From: a virus
Virus record (IMG/VR): IMGVR_UViG_3300007623_000043
Span: 1 to 20,173 of that record
Direction: 5' to 3' (one strand)
DNA length: 20,173 nucleotides
A program made the translations under genes and the position numbers. The notes beneath the pieces were generated by a model. It was not told where the DNA came from, did not search any database, and worked only from the letters and a program-made list of their open reading frames with translations. Of the stretch, positions 10,704 to 16,169 are shown in pieces (position 1 is the stretch's first letter; each line of letters starts with the position of its first letter).

Positions 10704-10725
10704 GAAGGGTTCTTATGAACCCTTC
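10704..10725 (+). terminator. Perfect 9-bp hairpin after the 860-aa fiber gene; weak terminator or 3'-end structure
   Basis: GAAGGGTTC (10704-10712), a four-base loop TTAT, and GAACCCTTC (10717-10725) form a perfect stem 18 bases past the fiber stop. The following bases are ATTTATAAG rather than a run of T, so as an intrinsic terminator it would be weak. It directly abuts a second inverted repeat (10726-10788), and the two may act together. Confidence 0.65.
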
Positions 10726-10788
10726 ATTTATAAGCCCCATGTTCGACTTATAAATATAATTAGTCAATTAATTATGGGGTTTATAAAT
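10726..10788 (+). promoter_or_regulatory. Long inverted repeat that can hide the ribosome site and start codon of the 69-aa gene
   Basis: The 15-base arm at 10726-10740 (ATTTATAAGCCCCAT) pairs with 10774-10788 (ATGGGGTTTATAAAT) at every position, with one G-U wobble (10734 with 10780). The 3' arm contains the GGGG ribosome site (10776-10779) and the first two bases of the ATG at 10787. The 33-base loop holds a perfect late promoter, so RNA started there lacks the 5' arm. In T4 the genes e, soc, 49 and I-TevI use this layout to block translation of read-through RNA and allow it from late RNA. Here that function is inferred. Confidence 0.75.
10749..10756 (+). promoter_or_regulatory. T4-type late promoter (TATAAATA) for the small-protein pair
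   Basis: A perfect late promoter box lies 30 bases upstream of the 69-aa gene and inside the loop of the inverted repeat. By T4 spacing, transcription should begin a few bases downstream, around 10762, still within the loop. Confidence 0.8.
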
Positions 10789-10996
10789 GAAGAAATTAAA
10801 TTATTATGGTGTTGAAACAGCCAATTCCCCAAAAGAAGGAGTTGATTTGTTACTTAAAATGTTTGACGAACTTGCCGAAGTAGCAAGTACAGTTGACTAC
10901 ACCAAAAATGAAGATAGGGAGACATACAAACAGTATGTTAAGTCAATGCGAAGATATTTCGATAGATGTGAAAAACTTATCGTTAGTATGGAGTGA
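10787..10996 (+). CDS. Small helical protein of unknown function (69 aa)
   Basis: I do not recognise this protein. It is charged and almost certainly all-helical: 'KEGVDLLLKMFDELAEVAS' (residues 16-34) and 'ETYKQYVKSMRRYFDRCEKL' (45-64) read as two amphipathic helices around a polar turn. There is no membrane segment or signal peptide. It begins with ATG after GGGG seven bases upstream, inside a hairpin that could block translation of read-through RNA. The following small gene starts within ten bases of its stop, so the two are translationally linked. The location between two large fiber genes and behind a dedicated late promoter makes a fiber-assembly or virion-associated role plausible, but this is only inference. 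Confidence 0.7.
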   Translation: MKKLNYYGVETANSPKEGVDLLLKMFDELAEVASTVDYTKNEDRETYKQYVKSMRRYFDRCEKLIVSME

Positions 10997-11001
10997 AGTA
11001 T

Positions 11002-11223
11002 ATGGCAAAGACGGTTATTCCTGAACATATCGAAGGGTGGTTTGACAAAATTAGAAAAAACATAATTGAATTCCAAGAAAATAGACAGAACATGTCTAAG
11101 GATGAACAAATAGACTTTATAAGAAGACAATATGTTTTACTAGAAATAATTATATCGGTTTTGAATGACGAAATGTATTTTGTCGGTGTCAATCATGACC
11201 GCATTAAAAATAATCAGGAGTAA
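11002..11223 (+). CDS. Small helical protein of unknown function (73 aa)
   Basis: I prefer the ATG at 11002 because GGAG (10990-10993) sits eight bases upstream; a GTG at 10993 would add three residues but overlaps that ribosome site. The protein is charged and helical ('HIEGWFDKIRKNIIEFQENR' near residues 8-27, then 'IDFIRRQYVLLEIIISVLND'), with a hydrophobic stretch too short and broken to be a clear membrane segment. It is not obviously similar to the 69-aa partner beyond being short, helical and charged. Its stop is three bases before the 661-aa fiber start, so the three genes form one unit under the 10749 promoter. This favours a helper or partner of that fiber; no known family is recognised. 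Confidence 0.7.
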   Translation: MAKTVIPEHIEGWFDKIRKNIIEFQENRQNMSKDEQIDFIRRQYVLLEIIISVLNDEMYFVGVNHDRIKNNQE

Positions 11224-13240: not shown

Positions 13241-13264
13241 GGGAGCCTTTGGCTCCCTTTTTTT
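13241..13264 (+). terminator. Strong intrinsic terminator after the fiber block
   Basis: GGGAGCC (13241-13247), loop TTT, GGCTCCC (13251-13257), then seven T residues (13258-13264) form a textbook rho-independent terminator. It separates the fiber block from the neck, packaging and tail block. Confidence 0.93.
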
Positions 13265-13282
13265 ATCTTAAAGTGTAGGATA

Positions 13283-13290
13283 TATAAATA
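13283..13290 (+). promoter_or_regulatory. T4-type late promoter (TATAAATA) for gene 13 onward
   Basis: A perfect late promoter box lies between the terminator and gene 13, 21 bases upstream of the ATG. The AAAGGAGG ribosome site at 13297-13304 is the strongest in the window. The promoter probably drives gp13 through gp17, as no other promoter or terminator appears before 17805. Confidence 0.85.
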
Positions 13291-13311
13291 GTACATAAAG
13301 GAGGATTCTTA

Positions 13312-14052
13312 ATGGCTGTAAACTCAAGACAAGACTTAAAAGATTATTGTTTAAGAAGATTGGGAGCACCAATGGTAAACATTGATGTATCCGATGAACA
13401 AATTGAAGACCGCATTGATGATAGTCTGTCAAAGTTTGCCAGATACCATTATAGTGGCTCTGAAAAACTGTACTATAAACATCAATTGACTCAGGAAGAT
13501 TTAGATAATTCATATATTAATCTTCCAGAAAATATAATAACTGTAATTCGTGTCCTACCATATGGTGGTTCGCTATCTGATTATAGTGGTATGTTTAATT
13601 CAAAATATCAAATGATGTTAGGCGATTACAATACAGGTTCTGTTCCAACAATAACAGATATGGTTATGAAACAAACTCATTTCGACTTCCTATCTAGTAT
13701 GTTGGGTGGTACTGATTCTATACAATACAATCGCTATAAAGATAAACTAATTTTTAATACTATGTCATCTTCTTTGAAACCGGGAGACTTTATCATAGCT
13801 GAATGTTATTCAGTAGTAGATGCTGAAGAATATCCTGAAGTTTACAATGATAGTTGGGTTAAAAAATACACTACTGCTCTTATTAAACAGCAATGGGGTA
13901 TGAACTTATTGAAGTTTCAGGATGCTAAACTTCCGGGCGACATAACTCTAAACGGTGCCAGATATTATGAAGACGCAACTGACGAAATTGAAAGATTAGA
14001 TGAAAGTCTAAGAAACACATACGAGTTACCAGTTGACTTTATGATAGGATAA
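13312..14052 (+). CDS. gp13: Neck protein gp13
   Basis: This is the T4 gp13-type head-completion and neck protein, which helps seal the filled head and attach the tail. The N-terminal 'DLKDYCLRRLGAP' (residues 8-20) followed by 'VSDEQIEDRIDDSLSKFARY' (26-45) is the family signature, and the C-terminus carries 'YYEDATDEIERLDESLRNTY'. At 246 residues it is shorter than T4 gp13 (309) but close to the marine T4-like versions. The start is fixed by a near-perfect AAGGAGG seven bases upstream. It is followed by gp14, gp15, gp16, gp17, gp18 and gp19 in T4 order, which confirms the assignment. Confidence 0.93.
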   Translation: MAVNSRQDLKDYCLRRLGAPMVNIDVSDEQIEDRIDDSLSKFARYHYSGSEKLYYKHQLTQEDLDNSYINLPENIITVIRVLPYGGSLSDYSGMFNSKYQMMLGDYNTGSVPTITDMVMKQTHFDFLSSMLGGTDSIQYNRYKDKLIFNTMSSSLKPGDFIIAECYSVVDAEEYPEVYNDSWVKKYTTALIKQQWGMNLLKFQDAKLPGDITLNGARYYEDATDEIERLDESLRNTYELPVDFMIG

Positions 14053-15743: not shown

Positions 15744-16169
15744 ATGAGAGATAAAGTTACAGATAAAATAAATGATTGTCTTGATGTTTATGTGGAAGAT
15801 ACAACTGATGATGAAAAGGATTTGGTTGTATACGACTCCGATATTAAAAATGAAAGTCGCGAAGATGACATAAAAGACGATTATGACAAACGCAGAGATG
15901 TTTTATATGATTTGATTGATAAAGGAAACAAAGCATTGGAATCATCTTTATCTGTTGCTACAGGTTCAATGCATCCTAGGGCATTTGAAGTCACTGGACA
16001 ACTAATTAAAACTATGGCTGATGTAGCCAAAGATTTGACTGAACTTCAACAGTCCATGGATAAACTTGAAGGCGTGGATAAAGAAAAGAAAACTCAAAAT
16101 GTAACGCAAAATGCTATATTTGTCGGCTCCACTAGTGAATTACTAAAAACACTAAAGGAAAATAAATAA
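15744..16169 (+). CDS. gp16: Terminase small subunit gp16
   Basis: T4 gp16-type small terminase, which assembles as a ring that regulates the packaging ATPase and initial DNA cutting. Length (141) is near T4's 164. The acidic N-terminus leads to 'DDYDKRRDVLYDLID' (45-59), then 'MHPRAFEVTGQLIKTMADVA' (76-95) as the central helical pair, and finally 'QNAIFVGSTSELL' (122-134), the C-terminal box shared with T4 gp16 ('QNATVFMGSPTEL'). There is no obvious helix-turn-helix, as expected for the T4 type. AGGTGA at 15735-15740 precedes the ATG. The stop overlaps the gp17 start by one base. Confidence 0.93.
   Translation: MRDKVTDKINDCLDVYVEDTTDDEKDLVVYDSDIKNESREDDIKDDYDKRRDVLYDLIDKGNKALESSLSVATGSMHPRAFEVTGQLIKTMADVAKDLTELQQSMDKLEGVDKEKKTQNVTQNAIFVGSTSELLKTLKENK

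Follow-up and report, generated by a model that had tools for sequence, protein, structure and literature searches.

Background

The start of a small gene lies here within a long hairpin whose loop carries a late promoter box, and the question raised by this locus is whether the hairpin acts as a translational switch. Such switches have been described for a small number of genes in phage T4 and its near relatives, where they delay the synthesis of late proteins on early RNA. A preliminary description of the locus, made from the sequence alone, had recognized the same layout in front of an unknown gene pair. The analysis reported here leads us to consider, with a probability of about two in three, that a late promoter incorporates here a translational switch of the T4 type, placed on a two-gene orphan operon. 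It is probably the known device at a new place, with a 69-aa gene translatable only from the RNA begun at its own promoter.

Genomic context of the hairpin

The window, i.e. the whole stretch of DNA analyzed, is a 20,173-base IMG/VR fragment of a T4-like phage, and its source is a marine relative of T4. It encodes the neck protein gp13 (gene at 13312) and the large terminase (gene at 16169, about 56% identity to marine cyanophage terminases), the genes of gp14-gp16 and gp18-gp19 being named by gene order only. The genes with matches are of neck, terminase and similar late types, and no early gene was seen in this 20-kb fragment. At its very beginning (positions 1-320), the window carries tandem DNA repeats encoding the peptide repeat EGLGFNTSEVATQDP(R/S). 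It also holds, at 13241-13312, another junction composed successively of a gene, a terminator, a late promoter and a gene; a clear intrinsic terminator, GGGAGCCTTTGGCTCCCTTTTTTT, is followed there by TATAAATA (13241-13290) and delimits a second transcription unit before gene 13; strong occlusion of the start is absent.

The hairpin region (Table 1) is preceded by a gene whose product looks, from its sequence, like a coiled fiber protein, and for which the search of Pfam and PDB gave no match. On the other side, the orphan pair is bordered by a 661-aa protein matching PHROGs of unknown function. The pair has no convincing relatives in viral contigs, phage records, PHROGs and Pfam; no relative of the arm sequence was found in the same setting, nor any homologous leader among the loci searched. 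The proteins compared between this phage and IMGVR_UViG_3300007725_000089 are 100% identical, and this second contig starts at about 11294, just 3' of the hairpin, so that it provides no second copy of it. The 3' arm with the ATG, searched exactly in the viral contigs, gave 22 matches, none of them accompanied by a complementary upstream arm and a late box.

Table 1. Positions of the features composing and flanking the hairpin region of the window
Feature	Position	Strand	Characteristics
Upstream gene, stop codon	10684-10686		860-aa protein; precedes the hairpin region
Terminator-like hairpin, 9 bp	10704-10725		GAAGGGTTC-TTAT-GAACCCTTC; after the stop of the upstream gene; -15.5 kcal/mol, z -6.0
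5' arm of the sequestering stem	10722-10740	+	CTTCATTTATAAGCCCCAT; from inverted-repeat search and folding
T4-type late promoter box	10749-10756	+	TATAAATA; in the loop; predicted +1 at 10762
3' arm of the sequestering stem	10774-10792	+	ATGGGGTTTATAAATGAAG; covers the GGGG Shine-Dalgarno-like site (10776-10779) and the ATG (10787-10789)
69-aa orphan gene	10787-10996	+	Predicted two-helix protein; start hidden by the stem; codon usage fits only this frame
Second orphan gene	11002-11223	+	ATG at 11002; Shine-Dalgarno GGAG (10990-10993) within the last codons of the 69-aa gene

Codon usage also fits the frame of the second orphan gene and no other. Models built without alignments gave two helices for each of the two proteins (pLDDT 76 and 85), and Foldseek found nothing at E <= 0.001 for the second one. 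The comparison of both proteins with endonuclease families returned no match and no intron context was identified. The two genes are probably coupled, since the second Shine-Dalgarno sits within the last codons of the 69-aa gene. Further inside this gene, at 10838-10849, a good Shine-Dalgarno (AAGGAG, -8.3 kcal/mol) precedes an in-frame TTG at 10847.

A stem covering the start and a late promoter box in its loop

The arms ATTTATAAGCCCCAT (10726-10740) and ATGGGGTTTATAAAT (10774-10788) and the 33-base loop read as in the preliminary description, which had nevertheless understated the extent of the pairing: 15 positions with a single G-U were reported, and 19 are found (10722-10740 with 10774-10792), with one G-U. 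These 19-nt arms are 95% complementary in an inverted-repeat search of the window, and are the longest near-perfect arms among its short-range inverted repeats. In the minimum free energy structure, the stem counts 18 bp (10724-10741 with 10773-10790) and contains the whole AUG; the 3' arm covers the GGGG site, as had been noticed, together with the entire start codon instead of its first two bases. The locus displays the stable stem with Shine-Dalgarno and start codon on its 3' strand that characterizes the T4-type switch class. Computed for naked RNA at 37 C, as are all the folding energies given here, which ignore proteins and co-transcriptional kinetics, the 63-nt element reaches -20.0 kcal/mol against -7.3 +/- 2.4 in dinucleotide shuffles (z -5.2, 0/200 as good), and the 101 nt including the adjoining hairpin reach -36.4 kcal/mol (z -7.0). 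The Shine-Dalgarno hidden in this way is weak, with -5.4 kcal/mol for GGGG compared to -6.9 to -11.6 for the better structural genes of the window, a weakness that may be a trade-off for the strength of the stem.

The search of Rfam returned no family at gathering score, the sub-threshold matches being mostly generic long hairpins. The 10722-10792 stem was also considered as an intrinsic terminator and rejected on the criteria of a G+C-rich stem, a short loop and a T tract. A degenerate late box TATAAATG is present in both arms, on opposite strands (10782-10789 on the plus strand and 10725-10732 on the minus strand), and the whole 71-nt stretch shows 75% identity with its own reverse complement.

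The box TATAAATA is located in the loop at the place first given for it, and the predicted +1 corresponds to an offset of 13 from its first T. Such a box precedes +1 by about one helical turn (PMC2988020), and the cyanophage late box NATAAATA has been reported for S-PM2 and others (PMC2984593). Three of the four other exact TATAAATA boxes of the window are just upstream of gene starts, which makes this sequence a plausible promoter in this genome. According to sequence and folding, the RNA predicted to begin at the loop box is devoid of the 5' strand and its start is open, as in the T4-type switch class; the absence of the 5' arm, initially proposed for a +1 at 10762, holds for any predicted start between 10757 and 10768.

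Predicted occlusion of the start

The folding of RNAs started upstream and near 10762 had been suggested as a check of the proposal, and opening the ribosome site is 12.9 kcal/mol more costly in the upstream-started RNA. This score was calculated for every late-type box NATAAATA followed within 90 bases by the ATG of an open frame of at least 40 codons; the survey took in the window, T4 and about 160 related environmental loci, giving 405 late-promoter/start pairs (nearest ATG taken as ORF start in the environmental loci, T4 sites assigned by annotation coordinates). It is the difference between two costs of opening the start region (-14 to +3), the first for an RNA whose 5' end lies 60 bases before the box and the second, which is subtracted, for an RNA whose 5' end is +1, set 13 bases after the first base of the box. 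The window site ranks 2 of 405, the 364 non-T4 sites averaging 1.5 +/- 2.7 kcal/mol. In the same blind scan, the T4 genes documented to use this switch come out near the top, with the following ranks: e 1 and 6 (13.3 kcal/mol), I-TevII 3 (12.8 kcal/mol), 49 4 (12.4 kcal/mol), segB 7, 26 8 and 17, and I-TevI 15 (8.9 kcal/mol). Of the T4 parallels drawn at first, those with e, 49 and I-TevI have high scores, whereas soc is low (2.5 kcal/mol).

When the 60 bases upstream of the box were shuffled, 1/1000 sequences reached the observed occlusion, and none of the 1241 control ORF starts provided with a mock promoter (0/1241) reached the score of the window site. The result is independent of the exact start across 10757-10768. 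RNA started at or before 10730 is blocked and RNA started at or after 10738 is largely open, strong blocking occurring only from about 10734 or earlier.

Proposed functioning of the switch

The RNA reading through from the fiber-like gene holds both arms, and their pairing and energetics are those computed above; we infer that this fold would block translation, with a stem of 18-19 bp burying the Shine-Dalgarno and the start of the 69-aa gene. The phage late sigma/RNA polymerase would, judging from the box, start at about 10762 and produce an RNA lacking the 5' arm, with an open start. The output of the 69-aa gene, and probably of the downstream gene too, would then be set by their own late promoter alone and insulated from read-through. 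The silenced RNA would most likely be a late read-through escaping the 10704-10725 hairpin, not an early RNA as in T4. The T4-type reading of the preliminary description is supported for the layout and the predicted energetics. Genes of late structural types lie both just upstream and downstream, so that a repression acting on early RNA is less likely here: with a late-type gene upstream, the temporal reason of T4 would be missing, and since the upstream neighbors look late, insulation from late read-through is the likelier purpose.

The 10704-10725 hairpin, absent from the preliminary description, abuts the 5' arm, the base of which is overlapped by its 3' side. Its better T tract is on the minus strand, and it passes the terminator test on that strand only. 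This hairpin may also terminate or process RNA, and the stem would back it up in insulating the orphan pair from read-through. An alternative, unlikely in our opinion, is that the stacked hairpins (10704-10725 and 10722-10792) constitute the 3' end of the fiber-like mRNA, with a terminator followed by an exonuclease-blocking or RNase III-cut stem, hiding of the start being a by-product. The contiguity of the two hairpins and the similar junction at 13241-13312 are consistent with such a 3' end, but a long stem with a 33-base loop and no T tract after it has the wrong shape for a terminator; moreover, the 3' arm is positioned exactly over the ribosome site and the ATG, and the promoter box is inside the loop.

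An inverted repeat acting or originating at the DNA level (operator, cruciform or debris of an inverted late-box duplication) has a still lower probability. It would account for the degenerate TATAAATG present on each arm, at 10782 (+) and 10732-10725 (-), and for the 75% identity of the 71-nt stretch with its reverse complement, but no late box includes the GCCCCAT/ATGGGGT core, and the correspondence with the ribosome site would be left unexplained. A functionless chance pairing in AT-rich DNA is the least credible of these explanations: about 400 promoter/start pairs were examined and conservation support is absent at this locus, but the z values (-5.2 to -7.0), the controls (1/1000 and 0/1241) and the rank among proven T4 cases all argue against it.

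Pairing in gene 13 leaders and possible dose control

The promoter block (-33 to -1) of 38 distinct gene 13 (neck) leaders of environmental T4-like phages, a set in which relatedness was only thinned, pairs with its own leader at -7.80 kcal/mol against -5.76 +/- 0.33 kcal/mol with other loci (0/2000 permutations, several groups having been tested and p values being uncorrected). These blocks pair better than shuffled flanks (Wilcoxon p 0.00018, uncorrected) and also outperform the block lying further upstream (p 0.03, uncorrected). The same pairing test flags T4 (17/2000; p 0.0044) and does not flag gp18 and gp19, and a separate shuffle test of occlusion retains 11 of the 38 leaders at p <= 0.05. 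A second gene 13 set, comprising only six distinct leaders, gave a borderline result in a hold-out swap test (259/5000), and covariation among ten close leaders is weak, with one compensatory pair and 44/500 shuffles as good. In eight named phage genomes, inspection by eye of the gene 13 leaders revealed no clear example of pairing, and the pairing is not strong in the window's own gene 13 leader (ddG 3.6).

The promoter block tends to complement its own Shine-Dalgarno region in L007:3770, L116:1263, L121:7153, L050:4279, L017:6947 and other gene 13 leaders, with arms that differ by group: AGTCGTA/TACGACT in L116, ACTCTTAT/ATAGGAGT in L121 and GTCCTTAT/ATAAGGAT in L050. The 5' arm is often in or just after the TATA box, and is therefore absent from RNA begun there.

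A case of lysozyme strength in a distant marine phage, within a late structural block, suggests that the device is widespread, and the switch may serve dose control besides timing. We tentatively propose, while judging it somewhat improbable at present, that marine T4-like phages use the promoter-in-hairpin within the late program to insulate late genes located behind fiber genes (the orphan pair, commonly gene 13), their own promoter and not the upstream neighbor setting the dose. The pairing between promoter block and leader of gene 13 in many environmental phages provides a set of loci on which dose control can be tested.

Comparison with known T4-type leaders

The gene 13 leaders (e.g. L116, L121, L050 and L017) share with the hairpin of the window a promoter block pairing with its own Shine-Dalgarno region, and differ by weaker stems and a 5' arm often in or after the TATA box; they are a positional parallel, not a homologous leader. 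The leaders of T4 I-TevI, I-TevII, segB and Aeh1 mobE also have a sequestered ribosome site with a late promoter just upstream (PMC2988022), but they precede homing endonucleases, whereas the orphan proteins match no endonuclease family. The T4 gene 49 leader likewise combines a late box and a stem over the start. Gene 49 has a second, shorter CDS, which the internal Shine-Dalgarno and TTG (10847) of the 69-aa gene recall as a possibility of the sequence; a nested 49-aa product could be made from this TTG in the same manner.

The closest likeness in predicted strength is with T4 lysozyme (gene e), the hairpin of which cuts translation about 100-fold (PMC3014915). Both loci have late promoter(s) within the segment, a 5' strand pairing with the Shine-Dalgarno/start region and a late RNA without that strand, and their occlusion differences are similar (13.3 kcal/mol for e and 12.9 kcal/mol here). 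In T4, the genes silenced by such hairpins are late genes carried on early/middle RNA (PMC2988022, PMC3014915); gene e lies on early/middle-transcribed DNA, whereas the gene upstream of the present hairpin is late-type; unlike gene e, the locus described here associates an 18-19 bp stem and a box in a 31-33 base loop with an orphan gene.
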